A program made the translations under genes and the position numbers. Shown here piece by piece: positions 3,775 to 45,466 of a stretch of 64,000 bases of DNA. The notes under the pieces were generated by a model that made no database searches, was not told where the DNA came from, and worked only from the letters and a program-made list of their open reading frames with translations. Each line of letters begins with the position of its first letter. Position 1 is the first letter of the stretch. Source of the DNA: Muriicola soli (GTDB taxonomy: Bacteria > Bacteroidota > Bacteroidia > Flavobacteriales > Flavobacteriaceae); assembly GCF_004139715.1 (NCBI RefSeq), contig NZ_CP035544.1, positions 2,607,501 to 2,671,500 of the forward strand, read 5' to 3'.

Positions 3775-5601
3775 TTAATTGGGCTCGGTGTAGAAGATTT
3801 CGAGTTTTAGCTTCATTTCCTCCGGGACATCAGCTTCGCTGCCGAAAAGTACGGTGCTCAAAGGGCTCAGGGTTGCCCCAACTGGGATATCTTTATCCAT
3901 ATTGCCTTCAACAACGGCACTTGCGACCCCTGAAATACGAATATCAGGAGAAATGGCAAGACCCAGTGTAGCGTTTGTGGAATCGCGGAGAATCAGATCG
4001 TTAATATGATCGGTTATTCTTATTTTATACTTGATTCCAAGGTCGTTTTCTTCCTGTAAAATCGCATCATAGTCTAGATAGATCCCAAATCTCGAGTCAG
4101 CTGAATTATTTTCATTAGCCGGATTGTAGACCGGAGCATTGGTATCAGCATTATACATATAAAGCCTAAAAGGTTCAATAATTCCCCCTACCGCATTCAG
4201 GGCATCCCTGTCTACATAAAATACCAGATTGGCCTCATTGATGATCCAATTCCTCGATTTGATGTCATTGACAATCGCTTCACCGTTATTTTCCTCAAAA
4301 AGAGCTATTTCAGCAAATATTCCCGGTCCGCCTTTGAGATATATTCGGGAAGCATTGTTCCCGGTATCCAGATTATCGGAAATTTCAGTGGGATAAGACT
4401 CTGTGAGTATGGTATTTACCGCATTACCCGAAATGGGCGAGTTGGCTTGTCCCGTAATCAGGCTAATGGTGTAATCTCTTTCGGTGGTCTCCATTTCTCC
4501 ATCAACAATCCTGTCGTATTCATAAGTTATTGTAATACTGGCTGTACGAAGATCGAGGAGAAGCATAATGTCTTCAGTAGTAGGGGTCACAGAAAGATGA
4601 AGCCCTCTAAAAAAATCCTGGAAGTTAGAATTACTGATCAACTCAGATTTTCCTTCTTTATCCAGAATATTCTGTTGAAAGAAGTCCGAATCCAACGCAA
4701 CTCGTATTCCGGGTTCAATTACCTGCGGTGACGCCAGTGATTCATCATCCTCTGTATCCGGATCATCTTCAGCAAAAACCAGGGTTTGTTCATTATTGAT
4801 CAGGACTTCTCCATCAAATAGGACATCAGAGACAAAAGAGGGTGCAAATTCCTGACTAGAATAATACTCCTGTGCCTCCAGGAAATTTGAATTAGGATCC
4901 AGATCGCGAAGAAAATAGGTAGACCTTTCTACTTTAAAATTAAAGGGCAGGTCGCGATTACCGTAAATACTATCCAGATCTCTTTTAACCGGAAATCTGT
5001 TGGGCAGGGTGCTTGTATCCTCGTCATCAGGGATACCATCTCCGTCTGTATCTGTATTCAGGGGATCTGATCCCGAGACGCGTTCCTGGTTATCAGATAA
5101 TCCATCTCCATCGCTATCACTGTCCGGATCTTCAGGATCTACATCAAACTCATTGATGACTCCGTCGAGATCGGTATCTGCATTGTTGTTCCTGAGATAA
5201 GGAATGTACAATATAACCTCTGAAATCCTTTCGTTCTCTTCAATAGTTGCATCGATATCATCGGAATCAGAAATATCTTCTGTGCTCTGAGCGTAATTAC
5301 CGAAAGTTGGATTCCCTATTCCTCCTTGTAAAGAAACCTGTGTTGTAATACTTGCGGTGGTTTGGCCGTAAAGAGGATCATTAAAAACACCTATCTGATA
5401 AATAGGTAACTTATTTGTCTGAACTGCTTCTACATTCCTATTGTAGGCAAAGACGTCGTATAAAGCAACGTCAGAAACGAAGGGATTTTGGTCAATCACC
5501 CCGTTTCCAATAGTGGTGACCTCTTCTTCACATGAAGAGACCGCAATAAGCAGGAGTGTTCCTAAAAGGGCAGGAACTGTACCTCGTAAAAAGAATCGCA
5601 T
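3775..5601 (-). CDS. DUF4270 family lipoprotein with thrombospondin type-3-like acidic repeats
   Basis: Predicted surface or periplasmic lipoprotein of 608 residues; function unknown. The signal peptide ends in a lipobox (AVSSC, Cys24). The body resembles the Bacteroidota DUF4270 family, which commonly sits between a GT5-like gene and glmS as here. Residues about 141-198 carry a run of Asp-rich DxDxDGxxD units (for example DSDSDGDGLSDNQE and DTDGDGIPDDED) that look like type-3 thrombospondin calcium-binding repeats placed inside the domain. The gene begins 5 bases after the GT5-like gene, so the two are probably cotranscribed. The family call rests on overall resemblance and context; the acidic repeats are read directly. 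Confidence 0.85.
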   Translation of the reverse strand: MRFFLRGTVPALLGTLLLIAVSSCEEEVTTIGNGVIDQNPFVSDVALYDVFAYNRNVEAVQTNKLPIYQIGVFNDPLYGQTTASITTQVSLQGGIGNPTFGNYAQSTEDISDSDDIDATIEENERISEVILYIPYLRNNNADTDLDGVINEFDVDPEDPDSDSDGDGLSDNQERVSGSDPLNTDTDGDGIPDDEDTSTLPNRFPVKRDLDSIYGNRDLPFNFKVERSTYFLRDLDPNSNFLEAQEYYSSQEFAPSFVSDVLFDGEVLINNEQTLVFAEDDPDTEDDESLASPQVIEPGIRVALDSDFFQQNILDKEGKSELISNSNFQDFFRGLHLSVTPTTEDIMLLLDLRTASITITYEYDRIVDGEMETTERDYTISLITGQANSPISGNAVNTILTESYPTEISDNLDTGNNASRIYLKGGPGIFAEIALFEENNGEAIVNDIKSRNWIINEANLVFYVDRDALNAVGGIIEPFRLYMYNADTNAPVYNPANENNSADSRFGIYLDYDAILQEENDLGIKYKIRITDHINDLILRDSTNATLGLAISPDIRISGVASAVVEGNMDKDIPVGATLSPLSTVLFGSEADVPEEMKLKLEIFYTEPN

Positions 5602-39778: not shown

Positions 39779-40744
39779 TTAGGTTGTTTTTTCGGGATTA
39801 AATAAGTGATCTATCCATTGTTTACCCCAATTTTCTAATTCCTGTTCGGCGTGCAATTTCGGAAAAAACACCACCTTTTGAAAACTTGGCGGTAAATATT
39901 CCTTCCAATTGGTTCCTCCCGTTGCTTCAATTGACTTATCTCCTTTACTGAGATAGCGGTAGGCCGAGCCCATATGCATGAGCGGCCAATTTACATTCGC
40001 ATTGAGGTCCATCCTCCTTAACGCATCTTTAAGGTCTTTATTATTCCGGCTTTTTTCAGGTAACTTCAGGTATTTGTGATAGATCGTATTGTCTTCCACT
40101 TCTTTTGCTATCCTGATAAATCTGGGCGTGTAGCGATATTCAAACTGTTTGAGGGTCAGGGTTTTCTCTCCGGTATTTATATCTGTAGCGCCTTTTTTCC
40201 AGTAAATATGTTCGTACAGCTCTTCTATACTGTCTTCTTGCGAAAAATTGTTTCGCTCAGTTTCGTGAACCAGATTTTGAAGAGGAGTAGCGTATAATTC
40301 GATCATGCGGTATTGCGCCGATTGAAATCCACTGGACGGCAAAAGCGCCATTCGGTATCGCAGAAATTGCTCTCTTTCCATCCCGGTAATCATAATACTA
40401 AAGGAAGAGATCAGCGCTTTGTAATAGTTATTGATCCGGTTTACTTTTTCAATAAAATGGGATACTTCCTGGGACCTGTCATCCGCGATCTGTTTTTCTT
40501 CGTGTATGATGAGTTTAAAGTACAATTCCGTGATCTGGTGATACATTATAAAGATCTCCTCATCAGGAAAATAGGTCCTGGGCACCTGCAGGCTCAGCAG
40601 GGTATCTAGATGTATATAATCCCAGTACGTAAGATAACGCTGGTAGAGCAGGCCGTCGAGGTAGGAGCTCAGATCCTGTCCGGAATCTTTGTACTTCTCT
40701 GCCAGCTTTTCGATCTGAGATGCGATCTGCTCCTTTTTCTTCAT
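39779..40744 (-). CDS. Tryptophan 2,3-dioxygenase family protein
   Basis: Heme-dependent dioxygenase-family protein of 321 residues. TDO hallmarks are the substrate loop YLDGLLYQRYLTYWDYIHLDTLLSLQ (first part at 28-47), MYHQITELYFKL with His69 at the active-site position, and NWPLMHMGSAYRYL with the proximal heme ligand His257, followed by TGGTNWKEYLPP. No other kynurenine-pathway gene is nearby. It sits with DUF3108 and near hppD, an order I know in Flavobacteriaceae, so its true substrate could be another indole or aromatic compound; the name is by family. Confidence 0.9.
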   Translation of the reverse strand: MKKKEQIASQIEKLAEKYKDSGQDLSSYLDGLLYQRYLTYWDYIHLDTLLSLQVPRTYFPDEEIFIMYHQITELYFKLIIHEEKQIADDRSQEVSHFIEKVNRINNYYKALISSFSIMITGMEREQFLRYRMALLPSSGFQSAQYRMIELYATPLQNLVHETERNNFSQEDSIEELYEHIYWKKGATDINTGEKTLTLKQFEYRYTPRFIRIAKEVEDNTIYHKYLKLPEKSRNNKDLKDALRRMDLNANVNWPLMHMGSAYRYLSKGDKSIEATGGTNWKEYLPPSFQKVVFFPKLHAEQELENWGKQWIDHLFNPEKTT

Positions 40745-40751
40745 GCTGTTG

Positions 40752-41531
40752 TTAATCCATTATGATCTTGAACTGGTGCTTTAAGCCATTGTATCCGTCG
40801 AGATCGGCCTTAAGCGACCCTACCGCCAGATCAGCCTTGATACGGATAGGAATCTTGTTTCTATCATTTGACACCCACAAGGTAAGGCTTTCCTGTTCTT
40901 TAAATACCCTGCCGGCCTGTACGTAGGGTCTGAATTTTAGACATTCCACTTTTCCAAATTTGGTTCGCAGTATGTCTTTCCCAAGAAATTTCAGTTTAAA
41001 CTTAAATATGCCTTCATCGTCATACAGCATGTTTAGTTGAATCGACTTGCCAATCTCCAGGTCTCCTATTTCGTAATTATTTCTGAGGAAATAAAAGCCC
41101 GACACCAGGTCTTGTATGTTTTCCCCTAGGTCAAAATTAAACTTTTTATCATTTTTTTTATCGTCGAGCAGGGCTTCTTTTTTGTTATAGTCAAAGTTGA
41201 TTTCTATGTCCTTGGTATAGCCTCCTTCGTCCACTTTTCGGACAAATCGATACGGTTTTCCGTTTTCCATATCAAAATAGCTCTCATAGGTATCGTCAAC
41301 CTTAAAGAAAATACTCGCAAATCCGGTGGTCCTCCCTCTGCCCACGACGTGGTATACAGGGGTCTCCCCAACGCTGTCTGTTTTAACATGCAGGGTGGCA
41401 TAGCTGGCATTCAAAATACCGTAATGTATCCTGAATTTAAGCCACTCCCCGGGTTTAAATGCTTCATGCACGTTTTGCGCATACAACATCCCCTGGAGAA
41501 AAAGAAACACAAGAAATACCTTCTTTTTCAT
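40752..41531 (-). CDS. DUF3108 secreted protein
   Basis: Exported protein of 259 residues (signal peptide MKKKVFLVFLFLQGMLYAQ). The body resembles DUF3108: GEWLKFRIHYGILNASYATL, KFGKVECLKFRPYV, and the ending SLTLWVSNDRNKIPIRIKADLAVGSLKADLDGY. Function is not known. It precedes the TDO-family gene by 7 bases and is probably first in the operon with TDO, M23 and pgi. A TAnnTTTG lies upstream. Confidence 0.85.
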   Translation of the reverse strand: MKKKVFLVFLFLQGMLYAQNVHEAFKPGEWLKFRIHYGILNASYATLHVKTDSVGETPVYHVVGRGRTTGFASIFFKVDDTYESYFDMENGKPYRFVRKVDEGGYTKDIEINFDYNKKEALLDDKKNDKKFNFDLGENIQDLVSGFYFLRNNYEIGDLEIGKSIQLNMLYDDEGIFKFKLKFLGKDILRTKFGKVECLKFRPYVQAGRVFKEQESLTLWVSNDRNKIPIRIKADLAVGSLKADLDGYNGLKHQFKIIMD

Positions 41532-41552: not shown

Positions 41553-41622
41553 GTAAAACAGGCTTCACAACCATGTTCTTAACGTTATTTAAACAACTAT
41601 TATTCCAATTTTGACTACAAAA

Positions 41623-41650
41623 AAAAGCCCCGACGAGCGTCGGAGCTTTT
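41623..41650. terminator. Bidirectional-looking terminator between hppD and DUF3108
   Basis: AAAAGC-C-CCGACG and CGTCGG-A-GCTTTT pair with one C/A mismatch, with A/T runs on both sides. It probably ends the minus-strand hppD transcript, about 185 bases past the hppD stop. Confidence 0.75.
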
Positions 41651-41834
41651 CCTAAATAACCAACCAAACTTTAAATTATGAAAAACCAATACTTAAAGTT
41701 ATAAGGGAACCACCCCTTATGAGTACAAATCTAATATATCTTCCTGAAACCACATTTCCTTTTAACGTAATTTAACTAGAACCTTAACAATAGTTTATTA
41801 AATCCTTGTGCGATTTAGGAAAATGGGTATATAA
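41651..41834 (+). other. Noncoding stretch with orphan short ORF and hairpin
   Basis: Holds AACCAACCAAAC leader-like sequence, an 8-codon ORF (41678-41704, MKNQYLKL then TAA) and the hairpin ATAAGGG/CCCTTAT at 41701-41720. No gene follows on this strand. It may be a relic of a gene start. Confidence 0.35.
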
Positions 41835-42977
41835 TCAGAGGGTTCCCCTTGATTCCTGTTCTCGTTCTATGGCTTCAAAAAGAGCCTTAAAATTCCCTTT
41901 CCCAAAAGACTTGGCGCCTTTTCTCTGTATGATCTCTATGAACATGGTAGGCCTGTCCAAAATAGGTTTGGTAAAGATTTGCAATAAATACCCTTCGTCA
42001 TCCCGATCGATCAGAATTCCGAGTTCGCTCAAAGGGGCAAGATCCTCATCGATTTCCCCAACCCGATCCAGAACATCCTCGTAATAAGATGCCGGTACCG
42101 TCAGAAATTCTACGCCGCGGTCTCTTAAAGCACTAACGGTTTCGATTATATTATCCGTCGCCAAAGCCATGTGCTGTACCCCTGCCCCGTTATAGAATTC
42201 AATGTACTCTTCTATTTGTGATTTTTTGCGTCCTTCAGCAGGTTCATTAATCGGGAATTTGATCCTTCCGTTCCCGTTACTCATCACCTTACTCATCAGG
42301 GCGGTGTATTCTGTTGATATGTCTTTGTCATCAAAAGAAACCAATTGTGCAAATCCCATAACATGGGCATAGAAGTGACACCATTTGTTCATTTCATTCC
42401 ATCCCACATTTCCCACCATATGGTCAATGTATTTAAGTCCCACATCTGAAGGCTGGTAGTGTGGGTTCCAGGCCTTATACCCGGGCATAAATACGCCTTT
42501 GTACTTACCCCTTTCTACAAAAACATGTACAGTTTCACCGTAAGTGTGGATCCCTGAGAGAACCACCTCTCCGGAATCATCTTTTATGGTTTTGGGTTCA
42601 AAATAGGATTCTGCTCCCCTTTTTACGGTTTCCTGGTAACTTTTTGTTGCGTCATCTACCCACAAGGCAATAGCTTTAACACCATCACCGTGTTGGTCTA
42701 TATGCCGATTGATATCCCCGCCTGATTTTAAAGGAGAGGTAAGCACCAATCTAATTTTATCCTGTTGTAATACGTAAGAAACTCTGTCTTTTAAACCGGT
42801 TTCCAGACCTGCGTAGGCCAGGGGTTGAAATCCCCATGCCCCCATGTAGTAATAGGCAGCCTGTTTTGCATTCCCCACGTAGAGTTCTACGTGATCTGTC
42901 CCTAGCAGCGGTAGGAAATCTTCTGCCGCCGGGTTCTCCTTTGGCAAGTGTAAAGAGGTGTTATCTAAAGTAGCCAT
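41835..42977 (-). CDS. hppD: 4-hydroxyphenylpyruvate dioxygenase
   Basis: Fe(II) enzyme of tyrosine degradation forming homogentisate; 380 residues. Two VOC domains are visible (VELYVGNAKQAAYYYM and YIDHMVGNVGWNEMNKW). The iron ligands are His186 (IDHMVG), His269 (VQHMAL) and Glu348 (FIEIIQ). The substrate loop FPINEPAEGRKKSQIEE is complete. The homogentisate dioxygenase gene is not in the window. A 207-base leader with overlapping hairpins and a 16-codon ORF precedes it; see findings. Confidence 0.97.
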   Translation of the reverse strand: MATLDNTSLHLPKENPAAEDFLPLLGTDHVELYVGNAKQAAYYYMGAWGFQPLAYAGLETGLKDRVSYVLQQDKIRLVLTSPLKSGGDINRHIDQHGDGVKAIALWVDDATKSYQETVKRGAESYFEPKTIKDDSGEVVLSGIHTYGETVHVFVERGKYKGVFMPGYKAWNPHYQPSDVGLKYIDHMVGNVGWNEMNKWCHFYAHVMGFAQLVSFDDKDISTEYTALMSKVMSNGNGRIKFPINEPAEGRKKSQIEEYIEFYNGAGVQHMALATDNIIETVSALRDRGVEFLTVPASYYEDVLDRVGEIDEDLAPLSELGILIDRDDEGYLLQIFTKPILDRPTMFIEIIQRKGAKSFGKGNFKALFEAIEREQESRGTL

Positions 42978-43021
42978 GATATTATTTTTGAATTGATTTT
43001 ACATTAAGGTGTGCCTGAATC

Positions 43022-43094
43022 GGCCCTGAAAATTGCAGGGCTGCTACCACATGGCCCTGAGATGGGCTGTAATATCTATTCTTATGATCAGCAT
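43022..43094 (-). promoter_or_regulatory. Candidate attenuator-like leader of hppD
   Basis: Four segments can pair alternatively on the minus strand: CAGCCC (43064-43069), CAGGGCC (43053-43059), GCAGCCCTG (43036-43044) and CAGGGCC (43022-43028). Segments 2:3 and 3:4 are mutually exclusive. A 16-codon ORF (ATG at 43094, TAG at 43044-43046, preceded by AGGAGAT) ends in Met-Trp and spans segments 1 and 2. No T-run follows 3:4, so classical termination is not shown. Confidence 0.4.
43044..43094 (-). CDS. Possible 16-residue leader peptide upstream of hppD
   Basis: Codons read MLIIRIDITAHLRAMW then TAG. AGGAGAT lies about 7 bases before the ATG, unusual for this lineage which rarely uses strong Shine-Dalgarno sites. 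It overlaps the first two arms of the leader hairpins. The only aromatic residue is a single Trp before the stop. It could be chance. Confidence 0.3.
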   Translation of the reverse strand: MLIIRIDITAHLRAMW

Positions 43095-43184
43095 GCGAGT
43101 TATCTCCTGTCGCAAAGATCGTAAAAAAGAGTGAAATTCTGTATGAACAAAGCCACTTCAATCTGTTCTTGCACCCGTATATAC

Positions 43185-45466
43185 TTAAAACCAGTAACCA
43201 AGGCTGATTAAAAAATACCCTTCATCGGTTTCAGGCGACCAGGAATAAAGGAGCTGGACGGGGCCAAAAAAGGATTCCCAGCCGTAACCCAGGCCAAAAC
43301 CGGTATAATCGGGTGCCGTAAACCATTCTCCGGTCCTGAAAATATCATCTTCAACATTGGCCATATTTGCCGCAAAGAGTAGGTGATTCTTCGGGCTGAA
43401 TTCATAGTCGAAACGAGCATATGCTTTTACGTAGCTGTTTCCGGGCAGACTCAGGAAATCGTATCCCAGGAAAGATTGAAAATTATTTAAAGGGTAGTTT
43501 CCAAATCCCCCAAGACAAAATCGAAGGAGGTCACACGGGATGTCCCAAGTTTAAACCCGCCTTCGGTTTCCAGATTGAGACTCATGTTTGGAAAAAGGGG
43601 GAATGCTGCACCCATGGTGGCCTTGGCAACTGAAAATTCCTTGAAATTATCGTTAAAATCAGATGACCACAGGTAAAAGTGAAAATCCCCATCAAAATAA
43701 AGCCCTCTTGAGGGAAAATACTTATCGTCATAAGTGTCGAGCGTGAGACGTCCAAAGGTGGAAACATAGTTGCCCTTTTCAAAGAATGTACTTTTTCCGG
43801 CAGATGATTGCGGAAGTGAAAGGCTGTCAGTGCGTTGTTCATTGAGTGTGGTGGTGCTATAAGTCAACAGTTTGTGTTCAGCGCCTATTTTAAAGGCAAA
43901 TTCTTCATTCAGTGCTGTTTGCAAATAGATTTGATTGGTAAAATCGGTAACCTTTAAATTGATGTTATTGACATTGACATTGACAGGAACCTCAAAGTTC
44001 GATTCTATTATTCCGTAATCGATCTCCCTTTCAAATTCATAGAATCGCGAATTGATTCCAAAACTCCAGTAGGAGCCTTTGTCAACATAATACTGGAAGT
44101 TATATCTCAAATTGTCACCGAGAATAAGATCGATAGAAGCCACGTCATCCTGCAGCAGCAAATTTTTTCTGGTAAGGTTAATCAGGGCTGCACTTTTATA
44201 TAGGTTATCGTAATGAGCTGCGATTCGCAGAAAGGTCTTATCGGTGCTTTCGGTAAGGCTCATGATCAAATCCTGACCCAGACCGTTAGACAGGAGTTCG
44301 TACCTGATCGTTCTAAAATTTCCCGTAGCAACCAAATTATTTATTCCCTGCTGAAGCTTTGTAAAGCTCATTTTTTCATTCAGGTTGATTCTCAGTTTCC
44401 CCTTGATATACCCCCGGGAAAAATTTTCATTTCCTTCCAGTACAAGTCGGTTTACTACAAGAGAATCCTGCAGCGGGATAAATGGCCTTTCTTCCGGGGA
44501 TAGATTTTGTTTTGTTGCGAGGGCCTCAAGGGCATCTTTGTGCTTTAGTGCAACTTGCTTTCCGGTTTTTATAATGGTGTCTTTCCGTTCAAAGTCGATC
44601 ACAGAGAAATTATCCATATCGGGCTTGATATAGATATCTGTAAGTTCCGATTTCCTCTTCATGTCTTTAATCGTGCGGAAGTTGTTGATCTGCAGAAGGA
44701 TTTCCGTAGCTGACGAAAGAGATGACCTATCCCTCAACCCGTGTTGCACGTCCACGCCAATGACGATGTCTGCACCCATAGCTCTTAATTCCTCCACGGG
44801 ATAGTTGTTGAGTACGCCGCCGTCGATCAGGATCTGTCCATCTACCTCTGCCGGCTGGAATAAGGATGGAAATGTTCCGCTTGCCAGAATGGCCTCAGGT
44901 AAATAGCCGCTGTTTAACATCACCTCTTTACCTGTTTCTACATTGGTGGCTATGCAAAAAAATGGGATTTCAAGCTCATTAAAGTCGCGTATGTCCTTCA
45001 CGTGATATAGTAATTTCACCAGGGTATTATAAATATTCTGACCGCTGGAAATACCTTGTGGAAAGGACAACTTAAAATTGTTGAATGGCAGGGTGAGCGC
45101 GTAACGTTCCGAGTCTTCTTTCTCGTAAAATGTCTTGGCATCTCTGGGCAGGTTATCCTGGATCAGAGCAGTAAGGTCTGAATTGCGAAAAAGGATTTCT
45201 AACTGCTTTGCCGAATATCCCGAGGCGTATAGCGCTCCAATAATGGCTCCCATACTTGTACCTCCGATGTAGTCTATGTGTACGCCCGACTCTTCTATGA
45301 CTTTTAGTGCGCCAATATGGGCCAGTCCCTTGGCTCCGCCCCCACTGAGGACCAGTCCCACTTTAGGTGCCTTCTCCTCGGTAGCTTGCTGTGCGTTTAT
45401 GTGGCACACCACCATAAAAATCATCGCGAAAATGAAGCTATTTCGCATACTGTGAAGATAGACCAT
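43185..45466 (-). pseudogene. Patatin-like phospholipase with BamA-type barrel, frameshifted near the C-terminus
   Basis: Exported protein. The intact part shows a signal peptide to about residue 25, a patatin domain with GGGAKG (42-47), nucleophile Ser71 in GTSMG and Asp215 in DGG, a POTRA-like region near 340, and a beta barrel. The frame stops at 43487 (659 residues), but in the -1 frame after the GGGGG at 43507-43511 the barrel continues for about 100 residues (GNYPLNNFQSFLGYDFLSLP, YGWESFFGPVQLLYSWSPET) and ends FLISLGYWF, a classic outer-membrane C-terminus. One extra G would give 760 residues. Its ATG overlaps the uvrC stop (TAATG), so translation is coupled; a second start is at 45448. 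It may be a sequencing error, a true mutation or phase variation. Confidence 0.88.

Follow-up and report, generated by a model that had tools for sequence, protein, structure and literature searches.

What is the role of a reading frame of 16 codons that lies directly ahead of hppD, the gene for 4-hydroxyphenylpyruvate dioxygenase, in Muriicola soli? We analysed the locus in a window of 64,000 nucleotides (the whole stretch of DNA under study: contig NZ_CP035544.1, positions 2,607,501 to 2,671,500) from the complete genome of 3.07 Mb; all positions below are those of the window. An earlier note had described an attenuator-like leader, in which four complementary arms form mutually exclusive hairpins and a small ORF with a strong AGGAGAT site runs through the first two. 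These sequence elements are all present where described, on the minus strand. The short ORF is the core of the observation, most of the proposed hairpins not being real, and the leader looks like an undescribed peptide switch that slows its own ribosome to control hppD. Many marine flavobacteria have it, Zobellia, Cellulophaga and Arenibacter being among the carrier genera.

The leader ORF and its promoter

The start codon of hppD, at 42977, lies 3' of the leader ORF on the minus strand, and the elements around the two genes are as follows.

43113..43120 (-), promoter -7 element GATCTTTG, a variant of the Bacteroidota TANNTTTG, assigned by resemblance to the consensus
43108-43102 (-), AGGAGAT
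43044..43094 (-), leader ORF from ATG at 43094 to TAG at 43044, 16 sense codons and TAG, encoding MLIIRIDITAHLRAMW and a stop; peptide conserved with synonymous codon changes
43044..43058 (-), invariant core Arg-Ala-Met-Trp-stop, AGG GCC ATG TGG TAG
41835..42977 (-), hppD, 4-hydroxyphenylpyruvate dioxygenase, 380 aa (TIGR01263, 449 bits with a cut-off of 277)

According to the available text of PMC6847099, transcription in Bacteroidota starts 4-5 nt downstream of the -7 element TANNTTTG, and the phylum is naturally without Shine-Dalgarno (SD) sequences. The predicted transcription start is at about 43107-43108, some 13 nt ahead of the leader ATG, and either GATATTTG or GATCTTTG is found within 60 nt upstream of this codon in 75 of 99 leaders. 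The AGGAGAT site is not conserved as an SD sequence: it would sit at the extreme 5' end of the mRNA, it varies even within the genus, and SD-like 4-mers are seen in 13 of the 99 leaders. The promoter variant TTTNCGATMTTTG (43113-43125, minus strand), whose GATATTTG/GATCTTTG core is retained before hppD leaders across genera, has only seven copies in this genome, with one for the reversed control, and may be more than a plain promoter.

Conservation and distribution of the leader peptide

Relatives were retrieved through their HPPD, the leader itself playing no part in the retrieval, as nine genomes of the genus and the 80 best-matching HPPD loci among named genome records. A leader ending in R-A-M-W-stop, mostly of 16 codons, is present in 9/9 genus genomes and at 78/80 HPPD-retrieved Flavobacteriaceae loci, the two exceptions (L090 and L091) both being Sinomicrobium. 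The consensus reads M-L-x-x-R-I-D-I-T-A-H-L-R-A-M-W-stop (RIDITAHLRAMW and a stop). In a pool of 99 distinct leaders, 80 obtained via HPPD and 19 via the pattern, His-6, Arg-4, Ala-3, Met-2 and Trp-1 (numbered from the stop) are identical in 99/99, H-L-R-A-M-W being true by construction in the 19. The other conserved residues are Leu-5 (94), Ile-9 (93), Asp-10 (87) and Arg-12 (87), and at codon -16 there is an ATG in 86 leaders and a GTG in six, which places a start at the 16-codon length in 92 of the 99.

The nucleotides beneath these residues are far from fixed. Among 93 distinct 39-mers, six codons are used for Leu-5, six for Arg-4 and four for Ala-3, and the stop is TAA in 66, TAG in 17 and TGA in 10; nearest neighbours differ by 172 synonymous and 49 non-synonymous codon changes, with 27% expected to be synonymous. 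Base conservation stops at the leader stop codon, entropy being near maximum at every later position. As these residues and the stop stay the same whereas their codons differ synonymously, with TAA, TAG and TGA all in use, selection acts on the peptide: the substitution pattern, as judged from the aligned leaders, is that of a translated peptide under selection. The earlier view that a translated ORF precedes hppD is thus supported by peptide conservation. A riboswitch or an operator, acting in cis as RNA or DNA and open as a reading frame only by chance, would agree with some covariation in the leader and with the fact that no regulator was identified; the periodicity of substitution with the reading frame, the fixed residues and the three stop codons argue against it, as does Rfam, whose families match nothing in this leader at E up to 5 and nothing in nine related loci at gathering score. 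We regard such an element as the least probable of the explanations considered here.

The leader has one exact match in this genome, and at two mismatches there are three further sites versus two for reversed-pattern controls. The exact HLRAMW-stop codon pattern occurs in 43 of 299 family genomes, as a single copy in each, and a larger draw that overlaps the first gave 58 of 397; the reversed-pattern control had no match in either. All 30 of the exact-pattern matches fetched from the first draw lie upstream of hppD on the same strand. These facts bear on the proposal that the released 16-residue peptide is itself a functional product, for instance a protein ligand, placed before hppD out of operon economy. 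Strong peptide conservation would be expected of such a product; a single copy per genome, directly before hppD in each fetched match, would not, and the most conserved end is that which would sit at the ribosome's catalytic centre at termination. We give this proposal a very small chance.

hppD is present in 239 of the 299 family genomes. Of 60 hppD-bearing genomes inspected that lack the exact pattern, 11 carry a diverged leader and 49 none, and in these 49 the hmgA-hppD gaps are mostly short. Ten of the 11 diverged leaders end in RAMW-stop, with D, S, V, V, C, A, D, A, S or I at position -5, and the eleventh ends in RVMW-stop; RAMW-stop is retained by diverged leaders that have lost H or L. 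One genome (G104) has two HPPD matches, one of which is preceded by a diverged leader ending in HVRAMW-stop (L160). A spread beyond the family was considered and rejected: a looser pattern is found in 12 of 395 genomes of the class, where only three matches, all within the family, precede hppD. NCBIfam and Pfam models gave no match with a 20-residue relative (L025) as query, so short a query having little power.

RNA pairing within the leader and with the hppD start

The arms of the earlier note, the hairpins that they can form and a longer-range pairing are located as follows.

43069-43064 (-), CAGCCC, arm 1
43059-43053 (-), CAGGGCC, arm 2
43044-43036 (-), GCAGCCCTG, arm 3
43028-43022 (-), CAGGGCC, arm 4
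43054..43067 (-), small stem GCCC-ATCTCA-GGGC over codons A-H-L-R-A (arms 1:2), examined by mutual information and tree mapping
43023..43041 (-), hairpin GCCCTG-CAATTTT-CAGGGC (arms 3:4), present, lineage-specific, with no T-run
43074..43081 (-), leader segment GAATAGAT, codons R-I-D, which can pair with the hppD start region, here with one internal mismatch
42990..42997 (-), its partner ATCAATTC, 13-20 nt upstream of the hppD ATG

The leader folds about as its composition would predict, with an MFE of -27.9 and a z of -1.04 that 32 of 200 shuffles equal. Within the genus only one relative (L003) retains part of the 3:4 stem, and neither of the supposedly exclusive 2:3 and 3:4 pairings is kept in the consensus fold of the nine species; a conserved switch between them was rejected, as they are not conserved among the nine genus members. 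The check that the earlier note had proposed, conservation or covariation of the arms in relatives, thus goes against 3:4, and brought out the strong conservation of the peptide, which it had not foreseen. The 1:2 stem fares better in part. Its sole pair with both sides free, between the wobble positions of Ala-7 and Arg-4, ranks first among 528 column pairs in APC-corrected mutual information, and on the HPPD tree six branches change both wobbles, where about two are expected, five of them keeping the pair as C-G or T-A. This covariation lies inside codons; many single changes break the pair, and another pair of wobbles co-changes as often (seven times, 1.9 expected), so that the covariation of the 1:2 stem is suggestive only. 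A general folding signal in the spacer was also rejected, the first 45 nt having a z of about -1.1 versus -1.0 in control gaps, of which there are six, too few to compare.

In the window, no terminator is found on the coding strand. Terminator-like hairpins are seen in 16 of 99 leader-hppD spacers, in several lineages, where 3.2 are expected, and also in 2 of 45 hppD gaps that lack a leader, where 0.3 are expected. A classical starvation attenuator, in which a shortage of charged tRNA for Trp (or Met) halts the ribosome at ATG-TGG and so selects between hairpins, would account for Met and Trp as the last two sense codons in 99/99 leaders, and for a flavobacterium, attenuation by leader peptides has been put forward for operons of amino-acid biosynthesis, in the accessible part of PMC9723704. 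The Trp codon is single and terminal in all 99 leaders, without the tandem regulatory codons of such systems; there are no conserved alternative hairpins; R, I, D, H, R and A are conserved as residues, which counting codons does not need; and starvation is not expected to induce a catabolic gene. We find this mode of control highly improbable.

A different pairing emerged first in the consensus fold of seven leaders of the Eudoraea group, where GAATTGAT, over the R-I-D codons, pairs with ATCAATTC; in the present genome it is imperfect (-4.6 kcal/mol). Across the 99 leaders, pairing with the final 40 nt ahead of hppD exceeds that of shuffled sequences at codons -12 to -9 (mean z -1.0, peak -1.2), and z ranges from -0.4 to +0.1 elsewhere in the leader. 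Cognate pairing reaches -5.91 versus -5.10 with non-cognate start regions and, with one representative for each of 52 HPPD clusters, the cognate value is attained in a fraction of 0.0004 of the permuted draws, for a pairing that was spotted by inspection first and tested afterwards. Of two hold-outs, one with 13 leaders, most of them diverged, gave p 0.20, and one with 12 gave p 0.017 and includes a compensated pair in L303 (GGATTGAT with ATCAATCC). Other compensated pairs are found in L055 (GGGTTGAT with ATCAACTT), L045 (GGATTGA with TCAATCC) and L039 (ATCGG with CCGAT), and the pairing is missing in several lineages (L022, L027, L057). That the R-I-D codons fold back on the hppD start region, in a lineage-dependent manner, is moderately supported by these comparisons.

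Such a pairing could suffice without any ligand: the hppD start would simply be opened by translation of the leader, and conservation of the peptide would follow from overlapping RNA structure. Both the R-I-D pairing and the covarying wobbles of Ala-7 and Arg-4 speak for this coupling. RNA pairing cannot, however, explain the synonymous freedom at Leu-5, Arg-4, Ala-3 and the stop with the residues fixed, and the invariant R-A-M-W-stop segment has no consistent partner in the spacer, pairing with the first 50 nt after the stop having been tried and rejected (mean z 0.02 over 99 leaders). Coupling of this kind seems unlikely to us, if not negligibly so.

Gene neighbourhood

Downstream of hppD, three further genes lie on the same strand.

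41618..41722 (-), sRNA-like gene of about 105 nt with its own TANNTTTG promoter element and a strong terminator, between hppD and DUF3108-TDO
40752..41531 (-), DUF3108 protein gene (PF11306)
39779..40744 (-), tryptophan 2,3-dioxygenase gene (TDO; PF03301 above gathering score, TIGR03036 match below the equivalog cut-off)

Eight loci (L096, L103, L104, L107, L109, L118, L119, L123) have the order hmgA-leader-hppD, in which the ORF is flanked by the two genes; the leader therefore keeps company with hppD rather than with one particular promoter. On the upstream side, nearly all of the remaining loci carry a patatin-Omp85 gene. The patatin-Omp85 gene of the window has a frame change at about 43508-43526 (minus strand) and is uninterrupted in the four relatives compared (L003, L005, L009, L019); the change may be either a sequencing error or a recent break.

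The order hppD - DUF3108 - TDO is nearly constant at leader-bearing loci. TDO falls inside the short stretch examined at 64 of 100 loci, two of them leader-less, and is present at 7/7 leader-bearing loci in a further comparison; within 3.2 kb, it is found at 20/20 leader-bearing versus 24/40 leader-less loci (Fisher 0.0005, kinship ignored). Three loci (L052, L056, L087) keep the leader without TDO. In L052, a 24-residue remnant of TDO follows DUF3108 (4471-4542): TDO was lost there and the leader stayed.

The hppD-DUF3108 gap, of 295-625 nt, contains a TANNTTTG element in 69 of 75 cases, with 27.5 expected. The sRNA-like gene within it consists of three stem-loops and a terminator (fold MFE z -5.91), GGTTGGTTATTTAGG being invariant in 75/75 gaps; by DNA similarity it is found in 15 of 40 relatives, strongly in 11, and it matches no Rfam family at gathering score. 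A single-stranded GGUUGGUUAUUUAGG is likewise invariant in 75/75 related gaps. The sRNA-like gene may be a relative of Rfp18 from Flavobacterium psychrophilum or may be unrelated to it, as far as the available text of PMC9723704 goes. Regulation of the hppD start by this RNA was rejected, pairing showing no excess (z 0.21 over 99 versus -0.29 for controls). Because hppD is separated from DUF3108-TDO by a terminated gene that has a promoter element of its own, the leader transcript may end after hppD. Tryptophan as the ligand, on the strength of the adjacent TDO, was rejected on the same separation and on the three leaders without TDO; the TDO neighbourhood is not good evidence for tryptophan sensing.

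Proposed action and comparison with known systems

The leader is short and of fixed length, its conservation increases towards the stop, and it stands immediately ahead of a single catabolic gene. These marks lead us to read it as a nascent-chain arrest peptide, acting as a translational attenuator of hppD and, in some lineages, as a transcriptional one; we infer arrest, ligand and sign from these features, and give this reading about even credence. Ribosome stalling, which the earlier note had offered as an alternative, finds support as a possible mechanism. The 16-codon ORF would be the first gene of the hppD mRNA and would encode a regulatory peptide that acts while still inside the ribosome, which would be held at Trp-stop. 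Either this stalled ribosome or another that queues behind it, covering the R-I-D codons, would block the pairing of the leader with the start region and turn hppD on; without arrest, the leader codons would fold back on the start region and hppD would be poorly translated. The usual footprint of a ribosome stopped at the stop codon would end just short of the R-I-D codons, which makes it necessary to assume a second ribosome in the queue. Where a hairpin and a T-run follow the leader, as in some lineages, such an arrest would keep transcription from terminating. A further step, to which we lean less, is that the leader represents a new class of metabolite-sensing arrest peptide in Bacteroidota with the motif R-A-M-W-stop, its 51-nt stretch combining a sensor peptide and an antisense arm; this is possible and is put forward tentatively.

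The leader has the general features of a nascent-chain arrest leader, a short ORF 5' of the regulated gene and peptide-level conservation that ends at the stop. With trpL-type leaders it shares a leader peptide containing Trp and, in a minority of lineages, a terminator-like hairpin. It differs from them in its one Trp codon, its catabolic gene and the lack of a conserved terminator or antiterminator: the intrinsic terminator and competing antiterminator of the trp type are absent from the coding strand here, with terminator-like hairpins in the 16 of 99 relatives. In Erm-type attenuators (ErmCL, ErmBL), stalling on the leader ORF frees the start of the next gene from RNA pairing, and stalling on the present leader would likewise free the hppD start; the covariation expected of a leader that sequesters the next start gives 0.0004 over the 52 clusters, with 0.20 and 0.017 in the hold-outs. 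The hppD leader differs in lacking an SD sequence, in having the A-rich start region as partner and in a putative ligand that is not an antibiotic.

TnaC of the E. coli tryptophanase operon, for which arrest with the stop codon in the A site has been proposed, is the closest precedent for stop-codon arrest under an aromatic metabolite (PMC8429421, in the portion available). Both are short leader ORFs before an aromatic amino-acid catabolic gene, with conserved residues up the tunnel that include an Asp about 10 residues from the end (same portion of PMC8429421). TnaC has 24 residues, with Trp-12, Asp-16 and Pro-24, and tnaA and tnaB downstream; the hppD leader has 16, no Trp about 12 residues before the end and no terminal Pro, its Trp being last, and is followed by hppD instead. 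The RAPP-type peptides ApdA and ApdP, in which Arg is required for stalling, and the similar SecM are closest in having Arg-Ala just before the peptidyl-transferase centre, according to the accessible text of PMC10951233. They carry Arg-Ala-Pro-Pro or close variants, where the hppD leader has Met-Trp-stop instead of Pro-Pro, and hppD is not a Sec or YidC gene. As the defining residues of both are missing, the leader is filed under neither TnaC nor RAPP, and it fits none of the described families tested. No paper describing this peptide was found, and the string HLRAMW is absent from the texts searched, a scope outside which subscription papers, preprints and supplements fall. To our knowledge, small-molecule-sensing arrest peptides are few and come mostly from Proteobacteria and Firmicutes. 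Here the last four residues of a 16-residue peptide are kept across dozens of flavobacterial genera; if ribosomes arrest on it, the leader would add to those systems a new motif and a new phylum for metabolite-sensing leaders, in a phylum without Shine-Dalgarno initiation, and which aromatic metabolite stops the ribosome at Trp-stop is directly testable.
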